The notes under the pieces are model-generated. The model ran no database searches. It saw only the letters and a list, made by a program, of their open reading frames with translations, and had not been told where the DNA came from. Shown in pieces: positions 1,878 through 8,749 of a stretch of 11,260 nt of DNA (positions are counted from its first letter, which is position 1; every line of letters begins with the position of its first letter). This DNA is from Betaproteobacteria bacterium (GTDB lineage Bacteria; Pseudomonadota; Gammaproteobacteria; Burkholderiales; Nitrosomonadaceae), in assembly GCA_022601315.1 (NCBI GenBank), contig JAHZIU010000103.1, positions 1 to 11,260 on the forward strand, in the 5' to 3' direction. The position numbers were made by a program, and so were the translations under genes.

Positions 1878-4800
1878 ATGTTTGAGCGAGTTATACAAAC
1901 AGCTATAAATTATCGTGGTTTGGTTATGGTGGCGGTGCTGGCAATGGCGGCATTAGGGGTGTACAGCTATCAGAATCTTCCCATTGATGCGGTACCAGAC
2001 ATAACCAATGTGCAGGTACAAATCAATACTACGGCGCCTGGGTTTTCGCCACTAGAATCTGAACAGAGGATAACTTTTCCAATTGAAATAATTATGGCTG
2101 GCCTTCCCAATCTTGATTATACCCGATCACTCTCTCGTTATGGTTTGTCGCAGGTTACAGTTGTTTTCAAGGATGGTACTGACATTTATTTTGCTCGTCA
2201 GCTGGTTAGCCAGCGTATTCAAGAAGCAAAAGGTCGTTTGCCCGTTGGTATAGAACCCAAAATGGGACCGATCTCTACGGGTCTGGGCGAAATTTTTATG
2301 TGGACGGTTGATGCGGTAGATGGCGCCAAGAAACCGGATGGCACAGCTTTTAATCCAACCGATTTACGTGAAATCCAAGACTGGATCATTAGGCCGCAGC
2401 TGCTTACTGTAAAAGGAGTTACAGAAGTAAATTCGGTCGGAGGGTATGTTAAGCAATTTCATGTGACACCTTATCCCGAGAAACTGATTGCGTTTGGTTT
2501 GACGCTACAAGATGTTACCACTGCTTTGGAGCGTAATAATCTCAACGTGGGTGCCGGTTATATCGAAAAAAGTGGCGAACAGTATCTGGTCCGCTTGCCT
2601 GGACAAATCGTTAACCTGGATGAAATTGGGAATGTCTTTCTTGGTTCGCGGCAGGGTGTGCCCATACGCATTAAAGATGTAGCAGACATACTGATAGGTA
2701 AGGAATTGCGTACCGGTGCCGCTACACAAAACGGCAAGGAAGTGGTACTGGGTACCGCGCATATGCTGATGGGAGAAAACAGTCGCACTGTTTCGCAGGC
2801 CGCGTCTGAAAAACTGGCGGAGATTAATCGCAGCCTGCCTGAAGGTGTCATTGCAACCCCTGTCTATAATCGTACCACCCTTGTAGACAAAACTATTCGC
2901 ACTGTCGTTAATAACTTAACGGAGGGCGCGCTCCTGGTAATTGTGGTGCTATTCTTGGCGCTCGGTAATCTACGTGCGGCGCTAATTACTGCGCTTGTTA
3001 TTCCGTTGTCGATGCTTTTCACTTTCAGCGGTATGGTGTCTAACCAGGTTAGTGCTAACCTGCTAAGTCTGGGAGCGCTCGATTTTGGTATCATCGTTGA
3101 TGGTGCTGTCATCATTGTCGAAAACTGTATTCGGCGTTTGTCTCATGAGCAGGGACGGTTGGGCCGGGAATTAACCCGTAACGAGCGCTTTGTAGTGGTT
3201 TTTGAAGCATCCAAGGAAGTGCGACGACCGTTGCTCTTTGGACAGCTTATTATCATGGTGGTTTATGTGCCCGTCTTTGCGTTGTCCGGAGTGGAAGCAA
3301 AAATGTTCCATCCCATGGCTTTCACGGTTTTGTTTGCTTTGCTAGGAGCGCTCATTCTTTCCGTGACATTTGTTCCGGCAGCGGTCGCTCTTTTTCTCTC
3401 TGGAAAAGTGACTGAAAAAGAAGGTGGGGCGTTGCTATGGGTAAAGAACGTCTATTCACTATCGTTGGATATTGCAATGCGTAATAAGGGATTGACCGTT
3501 ACGCTTGCTGTGGTCATTGTTGTGCTGTCCGGCTTGTTGTTAACGCGCATGGGCAGTGAATTTGTTCCTAGTCTCGACGAGGAGGATATTGCGCTTCATG
3601 CAATTCGTATTCCGGGCACCAGCCTGAGTACTGCTATTGAGATGCAAAATGAACTGGAGAAAACTCTCAAAGCTTTTCCCGAAGTAAAACGGGTTTTTGC
3701 TAAGATCGGAACCGCTGAGATTGCTACTGATCCGATGCCGCCGAGCGTTGCCGACATCTTCATCATTCTCAAACCTAAGTCGGAATGGCCGGAGTCGCGA
3801 GGCAGCAAGGCAGAACTGATAGCCGCAATGGAGCAGGCGGTATGGAAGGTTCCGGGCAACAACTATGAGTTTACCCAGCCGATACAGATGCGTTTTAATG
3901 AGTTGATATCGGGTGTTCGGGCGGATGTTGCGGTAAAGGTATTTGGCGACAACATGGATACCCTGTTCGAAGTAGGTGAGCAGATTGAAGCAATTCTTCA
4001 AACCGTCCCCGGTGCTGCGGATGTAAGAGTAGAACAGATTACTGGCCTGCCTGTGCTTTCCATTCAAATGAATCGTGCCCAGATGGCGCGTTACGGTTTG
4101 AACGTAGCAGATGTGCAGGATGCTGTTACCATTTCTGTCGGTGGAAGGAGCACTGGTATTATTTATGAGGGTGACCGCCGTTTTGAATTGCAGGTGCGGC
4201 TGCCGGAGCAGGTGCGCGGCGATATCGAAGAGCTGAAACGTTTACCGATTGCTCTCCCTGCTCGGAATATTGGTGGAGATGCAAACGCAAACGCTCTTCA
4301 ACCTGGCTTGCCTTTTTATGTTGCCTTAGGTGAAGTGGCCGAGTTTGAAATCGTTCAGGGTCCCAATCAGATAAGCCGCGAAAACAGCAAGCGCCGAGTG
4401 GTGGTCACCGCAAACGTACGTGGTCGGGATATGGGTTCGTTCGTCAGTGATGCGGAAGCACTTATTGCAGAGAGAGTACGAATTCCCCCCGGATACTGGA
4501 CGACATGGGGAGGTCAATTCGAACAGATGATTTCCGCTAAACAGCGCCTTCTGATAGTGATTCCACTTGCTTTGGGTATGGTCTTTCTTTTGATGTACAC
4601 CATGCTTGGAAATTTTCGCGATAGCATGCTGGTGTTTACTGCAGTTCCGCTAGCTGTTACTGGTGGGATTTTGGCCCTGTGGTTACGTGATATTCCCTTA
4701 TCTGTTTCCGCCGGGGTGGGTTTCGTTGCCATGTCTGGGGTGGCAGTATTGGATGGTCTGGTGTTGATACAGTTTATCCGTAATCTGCGAGAAAAAGGGA

Positions 4801-5070
4801 TGCCTTTGAACGATGCGGTTCGAGCTGGATCGCTTCTTAGACTGCGTCCGGTTCTGATAACAACCTGGGTGGAAACCCTCGGTTTTTTGCCAATGGCACT
4901 TAGTACCAGTACCGGTGCAGAGGTGCAGCGCACACTGGCAACAGTAATGGTCGGCAGCACTCTTTCTCAATCGCTGTTGACACTGCTGGTTTTGCCAGTG
5001 CTGTATCAGCTAGTTCATAGTCGAAATGTTTCTGCTGCAGACACGAATGCAGACAAAATTGCATTAAAAT

Positions 5071-5072
<2 letters not shown>
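1878..5072 (+). CDS. czcA: CzcA-type heavy-metal efflux RND transporter (inner membrane pump)
   Basis: This 1064-residue protein is full length for the heavy-metal efflux branch of the RND superfamily, which uses proton influx to expel cations through a tripartite complex. The ATG at 1878 follows AGGAG at 1866-1870. The N-terminus has TM1 and the family signature LPIDAVPDITNVQVQI. TM4 holds DFGIIVDGAVIIVEN, placing D402, D408 and E415 at the same numbers as the proton/cation-relay residues reported for Cupriavidus CzcA. This signature is typical of pumps for divalent ions (Zn, Co, Cd, perhaps Ni) rather than Cu/Ag pumps. Two large periplasmic loops follow TM1 and TM7. The last membrane segments contain unusual residues (LITTWVETLGFLPMALS) where most relatives have [17 protein letters not shown], and the tail is short. 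It lies 61 nt behind czcB. A decayed czcA-type copy starts at its stop codon. The exact substrate remains inferred. Confidence 0.95.
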
Positions 5073-5567
<495 letters not shown>

Positions 5568-5942: not shown

Positions 5943-6383
5943 ATGACTGATAAGAAAGAGCATAAACAAGCGCAAATAGAGCAGCAACTGGCGTTGAAAG
6001 CTTCAGAGGACAGTTTATCTAAAAATAAAAGAAGGCGACTACTGAAGGGAGCGGTTGCGCTGCCTGTCATTATGACGTTACACAGTGGTGCTGCACTGGC
6101 TCGCACCAGCAATATGATTGGTGATGCTCCAGCTGTAGATGCACAAGTTGACATGGAAGGACGGTTGCTTTGTGCTCATCCTGACCCTACACAGCCTCAA
6201 ATTGCAGGTGGACCATATGATCTGGGGATGATGCCATCAGGGCATTATGAAAAGCAAATAGATGGCAATGGACCCATTTCTCTTGATAATCAAGCGATTA
6301 ATTGTCGGGCTGGTGGTGGCGTCGTGATTTCAGGTGTTGCATATACTTCTATCATGAGTAGAAGTGGCTTTAATATAATGTAA
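5943..6383 (+). CDS. Small Tat-signal protein, candidate substrate of the downstream modification genes
   Basis: This 146-residue protein has no family I can name. Residues 1-28 are hydrophilic, charged and probably helical (rich in K, E and Q). They precede a twin-arginine motif, KRRRLLK (29-35), where RR at 30-31 plus R-L-L-K fits the RRxFLK pattern. A hydrophobic core (37-50) follows, with a likely AxA cleavage site after A53 (SGAALA|RT). The mature part of about 93 residues has two cysteines (C77, C121), is rich in G, P and D, and ends SRSGFNIM. The start is fixed by the need to include the signal; its ribosome-binding site is weak. It lies behind the sigma-54 promoter and 50 nt before a PqqD-like gene. 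The 28-residue extension before the signal could be a leader read by that RRE-like protein; this is inference. A structural or surface protein merely co-regulated with the cassette is the alternative. Confidence 0.8.
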   Translation: MTDKKEHKQAQIEQQLALKASEDSLSKNKRRRLLKGAVALPVIMTLHSGAALARTSNMIGDAPAVDAQVDMEGRLLCAHPDPTQPQIAGGPYDLGMMPSGHYEKQIDGNGPISLDNQAINCRAGGGVVISGVAYTSIMSRSGFNIM

Positions 6384-6433
6384 TATCTAAGAAACCATCA
6401 ACTTTCATTGTAATTACTATTCTCAATTGACTT

Positions 6434-6721
6434 ATGTTTTCCTCAATACGATGGCAAACTGTCAATTTCTCTTCATTAAGAATTGAGGAATGGGATGGAG
6501 AATATACTATGTTCCAGCCTGAGGCGGGAAAAACTCATCTTCTGAATCGGATGAGTATAAAAATTATTACATATCTCAGTCAAGCGCCCGCATCAACTGA
6601 TGAAATCTGTCACACGCTTGCTGTAAAATTTCAGCTAACGTCTGATGCAGCTTTCTTACGTAATATTGATAATACACTTCACCATTTTGATGCGTTGGGT
6701 CTCATTAAAAAAGTAAAATAG
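6434..6721 (+). CDS. PqqD-like (RRE-type) peptide chaperone of the HprK-related kinase A system
   Basis: This is a 95-residue protein with the PqqD/RRE fold pattern: N-terminal beta strands around W7 and EEWDGEYTMF (18-27), the motif GKTHLLNRM (32-40), then a winged-helix-like part (TDEICHTLAVKF, 55-66) and a final helix ending HFDALGLIKK (84-93). The (G)xTHLL segment and the DALGLI ending are, from memory, typical of the small PqqD relatives always found beside HprK-related kinase A. PqqD itself and other RiPP recognition elements bind leader peptides and present them to modifying enzymes, so a role in binding the upstream small protein is plausible but unproven. The start lacks a clear Shine-Dalgarno sequence, suggesting modest initiation or coupling. 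The stop codon overlaps the AGGAG of the following kinase gene. Confidence 0.82.
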   Translation: MFSSIRWQTVNFSSLRIEEWDGEYTMFQPEAGKTHLLNRMSIKIITYLSQAPASTDEICHTLAVKFQLTSDAAFLRNIDNTLHHFDALGLIKKVK

Positions 6722-6732
6722 GAGTAGTCAGC

Positions 6733-7641
6733 ATGATAGTGGGTCAAATTCCACTTCGAGAATTTAGCATGCTGATTTCAAATCAAGGACTTAGAGTAGT
6801 TATAGGGCCTTTCAATGTTTGTATTATCACAACCTATCAGCCATTAATCGTTCAGCTCCATAAGCTTTATAAAAATTATGAACTTGCGCAGGATGAAATC
6901 GCAGAATTTCATGTGCGAATTGTGGCAACAAGACCAATAAGAAAGCCGCTATCTGTATATGTTCGTTTTTTACTAGATGGCCAATCTCCATTTGCAGATT
7001 TTCCTGAAGAGCAGGCACTTGCAGTGCTGGAATGGGGAATTAATCTTGCGATTGCAATACGTGTTAATAACCTTATGTTGCTTCATTCTGCGGTGCTTGA
7101 AAGAAATGGACATGTACTATTGTTTCCCGCCTGGCCTGGTAGTGGAAAAACAACACTGAGCACGGTTTTATGTCACCGTGGATTCCGCTTATTTTCAGAC
7201 GAGTTTGGCTTAATGGATCCACAAGCAGGTGTTTTTTTTCCTATTCCAAGACTGATGCCACTCAAAAATGAATCTATTAATGTTGTTAAAAATTATTTGC
7301 CTGAAGCAATCTTTGGACAAGAAATACCTAACACACAGAAAGGTACAGTAGCACATGTTAGGCCACCCGAAGAAAGCATGCGACGTGCACAAGAAAGTGC
7401 AAAAGCAAAATGGATAATTTTTCCAAAATGGATAGCAAATTCTAAACTGGATTTATTGTCTTTACCTGACTCTGAGGCCTTTATGCTGTTGGCAAGCAAT
7501 TCATTTAATTACGAAATACTTGGAGAAACGGGGTTTCAGGCGGTGACTAGCCTGATAAAAACTTGCATATGCTATAAATTAGTGTATTCAGAGTTTGATG
7601 ATGTTCTTGCAGCAATTCAAACATTAACCGATGATATATAA
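6733..7641 (+). CDS. HprK-related P-loop kinase (HprK-related kinase A type)
   Basis: This 302-residue protein resembles the catalytic half of HPr kinase/phosphorylase. After a divergent N-terminal 110 residues comes the block LLHSAVLERNG (116-126), a Walker A loop AWPGSGKT (133-140; K139, T140) and FSDEFG (154-159). D156-E157 there stand where HprK has its paired acidic residues. KGTVAHVRPP (203-212) is a further motif I associate with this subgroup. True HprK phosphorylates a serine of HPr, but no HPr or PTS gene is near. HprK-like kinases can also modify peptides, as in lasso clusters where they phosphorylate a C-terminal serine. The ATG has AGGAG (6720-6724) at ideal spacing, and the 3' end overlaps the next gene by 11 nt, pointing to translational coupling. 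ATP-dependent phosphorylation of the small Tat protein is the favoured but untested idea. Confidence 0.87.
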   Translation: MIVGQIPLREFSMLISNQGLRVVIGPFNVCIITTYQPLIVQLHKLYKNYELAQDEIAEFHVRIVATRPIRKPLSVYVRFLLDGQSPFADFPEEQALAVLEWGINLAIAIRVNNLMLLHSAVLERNGHVLLFPAWPGSGKTTLSTVLCHRGFRLFSDEFGLMDPQAGVFFPIPRLMPLKNESINVVKNYLPEAIFGQEIPNTQKGTVAHVRPPEESMRRAQESAKAKWIIFPKWIANSKLDLLSLPDSEAFMLLASNSFNYEILGETGFQAVTSLIKTCICYKLVYSEFDDVLAAIQTLTDDI

Positions 7642-8749
7642 AGAACCAGACCATCAACAATTGCTTGTGCAAGCTTTGATAAATCCAGATTGCTTGATTG
7701 TTTATACTAATACTGACTGGGAATTACTGATAAGACTAGCTAGACGTGTAAAGTTATTGGGTCGTTTAGCAATGATGTTGAAGCAAAGGAGTTTGTTGGA
7801 AAAAATTCCACAAAGAGCCGCATACCAACTGAGATCAAGCCTTATCCAGGCAAAAAGACTCCAGCAACTGAGTCATTGGGAGTTAGACAGAGTGTTGTGG
7901 GCGCTACAAGTTATTGATGTTCCAATTGTTGTCTTGAAAGGTGTTGCCTATTCATTGGCGGGATTACCCGAGTCAAATGGGCGAGTTTACGCCGATCTGG
8001 ATTTTCTGGTACCAGAAAATGAATTGGGGAATGTGGAAACCATACTAACCAGTAAAGGTTGGCAATTTCAGAAGCTTTCAGCTTATGATGAGTATTACTA
8101 TCGTGTTTGGAGTCATGAAATACCACCACTTATTCATTGTGAAAGAGAAACTGAAGTTGATATCCATCACACCATCGCACCATTAACCAGTCGATTGAAA
8201 ATTAATACGGATTTGCTCTTTAAGGAAGCAATTACAGTGAATAATGATTCTGAATTAAAAATACTTAGTCCGGCTGATATGGTTACTCATTGCGCGGTCA
8301 ATTTGTTCCAAAATAATGAGCTGACAGATGATTTGCGGGATTTATTGGATTTTCACGATTTGTTGTTATTTTTTAGTGCTAAAGAAGAGAAATTTTTGGA
8401 AAAACTAACAGCGCGAGCAAATCAACTGCGCTTAAGTTATATCCTTTTTTATGCGATGTACTTTAGCAATCATATTTTTAAAACCAAGATTCCAGACTAT
8501 GTATTCAATGGTCTTGATAAAAAGCCTGGAAAAATAAAATTGTGGATCATGCATCGGACCGTTCCGCTGGCTTTGTTTCCTCAGAATCCAGACAAACAAT
8601 CAAAGATTGTTTTCATGGCTCGAACTTTAATGTACTTACGTAGCCACTGGATACGCATGCCACTTTACCTATTAATACCACATTTGGCCTATAAAACGTT
8701 TTTAGCAGTATTCCCAAAGAAGACAGCAGGCGTATCAAGTAATAAATAG
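7631..8749 (+). CDS. Nucleotidyltransferase family protein (NTP_transf_5-like)
   Basis: This 372-residue protein carries the marks of the NTP_transf_5 branch of the polymerase-beta nucleotidyltransferase fold: IVVLKGVAYSLAGLP (from V101-L102-K103-G104), then YADLDFLV with the metal-binding pair D122 and D124, and further on EVDIHH with D177 and H179 as the third acidic site. SPADMVTHCAVNLF in the middle is also typical of the family. The C-terminal 60 residues are basic and hydrophobic (HWIRMPLYLLIPHLAYKTF) and may touch the membrane. Members would transfer a nucleotide or related group to an unknown acceptor; relatives occur in lasso-peptide clusters as tailoring enzymes. The ATG overlaps the kinase stop, so the two proteins are probably made in fixed ratio and act together. 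No terminator was recognised in the 34 nt before the converging gene. Confidence 0.85.
   Translation: MIYKEPDHQQLLVQALINPDCLIVYTNTDWELLIRLARRVKLLGRLAMMLKQRSLLEKIPQRAAYQLRSSLIQAKRLQQLSHWELDRVLWALQVIDVPIVVLKGVAYSLAGLPESNGRVYADLDFLVPENELGNVETILTSKGWQFQKLSAYDEYYYRVWSHEIPPLIHCERETEVDIHHTIAPLTSRLKINTDLLFKEAITVNNDSELKILSPADMVTHCAVNLFQNNELTDDLRDLLDFHDLLLFFSAKEEKFLEKLTARANQLRLSYILFYAMYFSNHIFKTKIPDYVFNGLDKKPGKIKLWIMHRTVPLALFPQNPDKQSKIVFMARTLMYLRSHWIRMPLYLLIPHLAYKTFLAVFPKKTAGVSSNK

Follow-up and report, generated by a model that had tools for sequence, protein, structure and literature searches.

The closest described systems are the clusters for phosphorylated lasso peptides (paeninodin, pseudomycoidin and bsf). 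According to published reports, they encode a PqqD-type recognition element (RRE) of ribosomally synthesized and post-translationally modified peptides (RiPPs) and an HPr-kinase homologue beside a ribosomal precursor, and the pseudomycoidin and bsf clusters also carry a nucleotidyltransferase (NTase) (PMC9266682, PMC8498205, PMC10368454). Specifically, BsfK phosphorylates Ser3 of its lasso precursor, the RRE protein BsfB1 greatly accelerates this reaction, and the bsf cluster also encodes an NTase without known function (PMC10368454). PadeK, ThcoK and SyanK phosphorylate a C-terminal serine, with an essential His-Lys-Asp-Asp motif, and PsmN is responsible for the addition of hexoses to phosphoserine (PMC9266682). 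A second described grouping is the HPr-rel-A system, which comprises TIGR04352 and TIGR04353 (titled "HPr-rel-A system PqqD family peptide chaperone") together with PF14907; its family titles name no substrate, and our literature searches, in open-licence PMC articles and hence without subscription papers, listed no paper that names one and none on the family of the small protein described below. We analyzed a stretch of 11,260 nucleotides (hereafter the window) from a Betaproteobacteria bacterium of the Nitrosomonadaceae (assembly GCA_022601315.1, contig JAHZIU010000103.1), in which a kinase and a PqqD-like protein that are members of the HPr-rel-A system, as well as an NTase, are likewise encoded beside a small precursor, here with an export signal of twin-arginine translocation (Tat) type. 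Sequence comparisons give good support to this small protein being the partner, and probably the substrate, of the other three. To the described families, this adds a Tat-type precursor, a signal motif, a serine at position +3 and a link to the exosortase XrtA.

The window holds the four cassette genes on the + strand, to which all cassette coordinates below refer: the small precursor (5943..6383, 146 aa), the PqqD-like protein (6434..6721, 95 aa), the HprK-related kinase A (6733..7641, 302 aa) and the PF14907 NTase (7631..8749, 372 aa). The first two are separated by a 50-nt gap and the next two by an 11-nt gap, and the start of the NTase gene overlaps the end of the kinase gene by 11 nt, exactly as an initial annotation of this DNA had claimed from its letters. 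The three identities proposed there also held, each above the family cut-off: 60.6 bits versus 35 for the PqqD-like protein (TIGR04353), 326.9 versus 200 for the kinase (TIGR04352), and 166.4 versus 31.2 for the NTase (PF14907). For the small precursor, scans of Pfam and NCBIfam gave no match at E ≤ 1, and its profile gave only chance-level matches to the PDB (E 0.12–0.82). Searched against 5.8 billion proteins, it drew 127 hits with E ≤ 0.001, one of which is the protein itself; those with a named host are mostly from Nitrosomonas and Nitrosospira. Judged by these 127 hits and by a conserved pattern across 93 aligned sequences, the small protein is a genuine gene.

To evaluate whether the small protein goes together with the trio, we used three samples, which overlap in part. 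In the family of the window, the kinase exceeded its cut-off in 32 of 125 genomes and the small protein was found in 30, all among those 32, with the two genes neighbours in every one of the 30; the two exceptions (G002 and G003) belong to another genus. Across the phylum, the kinase exceeded its cut-off in 61 of 398 genomes drawn; three were set aside, two because the family sample included them and one because its locus was broken across contig ends. At 49 of the remaining 58 loci, a protein with a twin-arginine (RR) signal was encoded before the PqqD-like and kinase genes, as judged by an automatic rule and by reading of open reading frames (ORFs). In the third sample (hereafter the named loci), which consists of the best 80 of 592 kinase relatives from a scan of genome contigs and thus leans to near relatives, an RR-signal protein preceded the kinase at 73 of the 80 loci (partly by eye). 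The hosts include Nitrosomonas, Methylococcaceae, Accumulibacter, Chromatiaceae, Thiobacillus, Rubrivivax, Massilia, Noviherbaspirillum and Magnetococcales among others. Over the 90 loci of the family (32) and phylum (58) samples, the rule itself (RR, hydrophobic stretch, AxA) selected an upstream ORF at 77, versus 11 when the protein sequences were reversed, a handful of its picks being wrong (e.g., L108, L113, L125, L129 and L131). Overall, the claim that a small protein with an RR signal goes with the trio was borne out: far from being absent beside most related trios, such a protein accompanies most of them in all three samples. It is true that gene order alone proves nothing and that the database scans recognized no domain in the small protein, so that the four genes might be neighbours without joint function and the small protein an independent secreted protein. 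This view, already disfavoured, is very improbable given the co-occurrence in three samples and a signal type common to precursors whose mature domains look unrelated.

These mature parts fall by eye into at least four kinds: the Nitrosomonas kind, one with an SCWxSF ending, one with cysteine/SG-rich starts (e.g., QCSISGMxSGNLS), and a CEIPVP...GFTC[FY]ASLQ kind. Precursors of the Nitrosomonas and SCWxSF kinds have homologous signal regions (hhalign 98.8%, E 7.6e-17). The precursor was seen in part at L113 and L115 (C-terminal end only) and at L193 (only up to RRKL). In family f45, the precursor shared by loci L109–L117 ends in GFTC(F/Y)ASLQ, in most cases as ASLQMPRG; the constancy of this tail is striking.

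Tat signals are marked by an RRx[FL]LK motif, a hydrophobic stretch and AxA. The small protein satisfies this pattern with R30-R31-R32-L33-L34-K35, a hydrophobic stretch and A51-L52-A53, i.e., a signal from R30 to A53 (6030..6101; RRRLLKG..P.IMTLHSGAALA), with cleavage sites here and below set by the AxA rule and not by a signal-peptide predictor. Since the general Tat-signal model TIGR01409 matched nothing in the genome of the window (E ≤ 0.001, whole genome), nor the small protein in an NCBIfam scan (E ≤ 1), the prediction of Tat over Sec export is drawn from the RRRLLK motif; TatC was found in all 21 cassette genomes tested. Among the 93 aligned sequences, R30, R31, P41, I43, T45, L46, S48, G49, A53, R54, S56 and N57 are invariant, as are C77, D93, G95, G126, S130 and S136 further on, and within residues 1–28 Met1 alone reaches 90% conservation. 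The most conserved stretch is thus the export-type signal with the first mature residues (residues 30–57), across the predicted cleavage site. The initial annotation had named the lack of a conserved leader as evidence against its reading. A conserved element does exist, at residues 30–57, and the N-terminal extension was dropped as a candidate leader given that only Met1 is conserved there. In the AlphaFold2 model (overall predicted local distance difference test score, pLDDT, 69.6), residues 1–57 mostly lie below 50, and ten-residue blocks from residue 71 on average 81–92. The mature part, modeled as folded from about residue 65, is thereby predicted to be mostly a small folded domain, not a short peptide.

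The signal also carries a motif of its own. Among precursors of the Nitrosomonas type, T[LVM]xS[GR] preceded the cleavage site in 34 of 35; the remaining precursors had it in 59 of 99 cases, and ordinary Tat signals in none of 31. A looser form was found in 35 of 35, 74 of 99 and 3 of 31, respectively. The p-value for the motif, 1.6e-10, is inflated by the relatedness of the sequences. The precursor set comprised 134 unique signals after L113, L125, L129, L131, L163, L193 and L199 had been dropped, and the few wrong picks left in it (e.g., L111, L116 and L178) lower the count. The ordinary set comprised 31 unique signals, RRx[FLIM]-filtered from 39 loci of cassette-bearing genomes, some of them the same place. 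This sequence pattern suggests that the conserved "leader" is likely the export signal itself, which we propose as the recognition element, the signal doubling as leader.

Directly behind the signal, Ser56 (6108..6110) is the predicted mature residue 3, is invariant in all 93 sequences, and is proposed as the most likely phospho-acceptor. The residue at +3 was counted in 87 unique signals with a T[LVM]x[SPN][GRQ]...AxA-like pattern; as the signals were chosen by this pattern, the count is not independent of the signal motif. A serine stands at +3 from AxA in 67 of 78 SG-type precursors, and serine or threonine in 70 of 78. Outside the Nitrosomonas pattern, serine or threonine occupies +3 in 34 of 42 precursors, compared to 6 of 21 ordinary Tat signals.

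The RRE fold consists of strands followed by three helices (winged helix-turn-helix). The AlphaFold2 model of the PqqD-like protein (pLDDT 87.9; E-E-E-E-H-H-H-E) shows this order, and it is on the secondary-structure order together with sequence profiles that membership in the fold rests; the RRE-like character first read from the letters was thus upheld, with TIGR04353, this model and, more weakly, a lasso RRE as the best PDB profile match in its favor. PF05402 stayed below its cut-off (19.5 bits versus 23.4). T34-H35 is invariant in 53 aligned PqqD-like proteins, for which locus translations were used because a protein search with the PqqD-like protein of the window gave only two relatives. 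In the kinase, H118, K139, D156 and E157 are invariant across 16 diverse aligned sequences, the P-loop reads GSGKTT (7138..7155), and the profile matches HPr kinase structures (E 4e-4 to 7e-4); as single sequences, neither the kinase nor the NTase matched the PDB. The nucleotidyltransferase fold is marked by a G-R..DxD motif plus a third Asp, and these residues (G117, R118, D122, D124 and D177) are kept in 9 of 9 NTase sequences, within and beyond a GRVYADLD motif (7979..8002) that we take to have an active-site role.

No NTase was found at several loci of families including Magnetococcales. At two such loci the downstream gene was tested: at L085, it encodes a sulfotransferase with tetratricopeptide repeats (TPRs; PF13469, 154.6 bits), and at L067, where it is cut by the locus end, TPRs only. 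An NTase match was flagged at L173 and none at L093, although these two loci lie on contigs of equal length. At L084 (1438-3564), a single 708-aa frame matches both kinase A and NTase.

Several observations weigh against assigning the small protein to the trio as its substrate, or against parts of this assignment. No adjacent precursor was seen at 9 of the 58 phylum loci (L087, L094, L104, L119, L128, L130 and L131, with L100 at a contig edge and L125 ambiguous), or at 7 of the 80 named loci (L150, L163, L182, L199 and L202, with L157 and L165 at contig edges). In the family, G002 (L129) encodes the kinase and NTase with neither a PqqD match nor a precursor within 9 kb, and G003 (L003), whose contig starts just before the kinase gene, may resemble it. 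The trio itself is not always complete: a PqqD-like gene was found by profile at 74 of the 90 loci and 66 of the 80 named loci, and an NTase at 70 and 77, respectively. At 6 of the 16 loci among the 90 where the PqqD profile missed, an ORF of 69–112 aa occupies its position, its PqqD-likeness not confirmed. The best PDB match of the 53-sequence PqqD-like profile, the lasso RRE TfuB1 (6jx3_B), is weak (E 0.0042), and the RRE of the window as a single sequence matches nothing in the PDB. The second catalytic Asp of the lasso kinases is replaced here by Glu (E157). The strict signal motif is missing from 40 of the 99 other precursors, S130 and S136 of the small protein are as invariant as Ser56, and none of the nine SRP-type precursors counted has a serine at +3, so Ser56 may not be a general site.

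Weighing both sides, we consider it likely that the trio modifies the small protein in the cytoplasm before Tat export. By analogy with the lasso systems, the PqqD-like protein would bind the export signal in the way that an RRE binds a leader. The kinase would phosphorylate a serine next to the signal, most likely Ser56, and the NTase would extend the phosphate by another group, either a nucleoside monophosphate or, as with PsmN, a sugar; the modified small protein would then leave through Tat and its signal would be cleaved. The cassette would act like the RRE-kinase-NTase part of the phosphorylated lasso clusters, with the export signal replacing the leader and the lasso protease family missing. 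For the chemistry, a phosphate on Ser56 followed by an NTase-added group is a reasoned proposal that we hold at slightly less than even weight.

The RRE, kinase and NTase are all known parts of lasso clusters, and the cassette could in principle be a degenerate or unusual cluster of this type, in which a C-terminal or internal core of the small protein is excised and cyclised by enzymes encoded elsewhere. This is the least probable of the alternatives: the family of the lasso leader protease B2, PF13471, was absent from 21 of 21 cassette genomes (the lasso cyclase was not searched for), and beyond residue 60 the small protein contains invariant positions and is predicted to be folded. Lasso-peptide membership was not adopted, given this absence of PF13471. 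The window precursor also differs from those of lasso clusters in its length of 146 aa, its twin-arginine-type signal and its predicted folded mature part, and no YxxPxL leader was noticed in the precursor alignments, in which no pattern search was made.

A different comparison is with the maturation proteins of Tat-exported redox enzymes, of the TorD/DmsD type. Like these, the PqqD-like protein would be a dedicated Tat-signal chaperone, but its fold differs, being RRE-like, and a kinase and an NTase accompany it.

Next, we examined the genomic setting of the cassette, in which the XrtA/PEP-CTERM exopolysaccharide system stood out through strong co-occurrence. In the genus of the window (85 genomes), an exosortase frame of XrtA length (~520–550 aa; split into two frames in G033) was found in 27 of 27 cassette genomes and 0 of 58 others. 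G024, G056 and G058 hold exosortase fragments whose type is not assignable, and the ~300-aa exosortase frame of one cassette-less genome is XrtB. In the genome of the window, the exosortase is exosortase A; it occurs together with EpsI and next to XrtA FemAB and deacetylase genes. For genus g3, a long exosortase frame was found in 22 of 23 listed genomes (fragments in the other) but the small protein in only three; the presence of XrtA is therefore no guarantee of the cassette. Across the phylum, XrtA exceeded its cut-off in 25 of 61 cassette genomes versus 10 of 337 others, in a comparison whose Fisher tests, like those within the genus, assume independence among genomes that are in fact related; within the genus, a clade effect may lie behind the co-occurrence. 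All 25 cassette genomes of the window's order, its class and families f45 and f78 have XrtA; the 36 that lack it belong to different families, six of them with a weaker exosortase match. Cassette and XrtA shared a contig in 18 of the 25 genomes and lay within 60 kb of each other in 7 of these 18, compared to 1.3 expected under a uniform model, and 4 of 10 neighbouring genes tested (ten picked from 22) were XrtA-system genes. The precursor differs from PEP-CTERM proteins in that no C-terminal sorting signal is evident in it, with no dedicated search made, and XrtA also occurs without the cassette. Taken together, this suggests that the XrtA extracellular polysaccharide system is likely the setting of the cassette.

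This setting bears on a further explanation, in which the PqqD-like protein would be mainly a Tat-signal export chaperone, and the kinase and NTase would act on another substrate, e.g., a precursor of the XrtA exopolysaccharide. XrtA glycosyltransferase or PrsK genes indeed flank some cassettes, and at L094, L128 and L130 kinase-A genes lie among sugar/polysaccharide genes (by eye) with neither a PqqD match nor a precursor. We nonetheless regard this division of labor as unlikely: in all 30 genomes of the window's family in which the small protein was found, the kinase was found too, and the RRE of a lasso cluster strongly speeds up peptide phosphorylation by a kinase of the same general type (PMC10368454).

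For modification of the small protein itself, the widest form of our proposal is also its more tentative one, which we judge possible and somewhat less probable than the chemistry at Ser56. Exported proteins across the phylum would use their Tat signal as a RiPP-type leader, to be read by the RRE; an HprK-type kinase would phosphorylate the +3 serine, an NTase (or a sulfotransferase protein at some Magnetococcales-type loci) would elaborate the phosphate, and the folded product would be exported into a matrix built by XrtA. If true, this would join RiPP tailoring with Tat export and provide an extra route for phosphate-linked groups on extracellular proteins. For a recurring HPr-rel-A cassette, the analysis newly names a likely substrate, a likely recognition element (the export signal), a likely acceptor residue and a physiological partner (XrtA), which makes the cassette directly testable in E. 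coli K-12.

Finally, we noted a few features around these genes. At L199, which like L129 and L003 belongs to another genus of the family, kinase A and the NTase occur with neither a precursor nor a PqqD match. At L182, L193, L202 and L206, the cassette kinase follows genes resembling prfA and/or prmC (by eye), names that we assign presumptively. In 23 of 31 family loci, the cassette has the end of a CzcA-type resistance-nodulation-division (RND) transporter gene on its upstream side; this holds for most genus g1 loci but not for the three g3 loci (L025, L028 and L031), and this arrangement may reflect function or plain synteny. In the window, a full-length CusA/CzcA-type transporter (1878-5072) is followed by a 139-aa C-terminal piece of another (5148-5567, +), which looks like the remnant of a second transporter copy.

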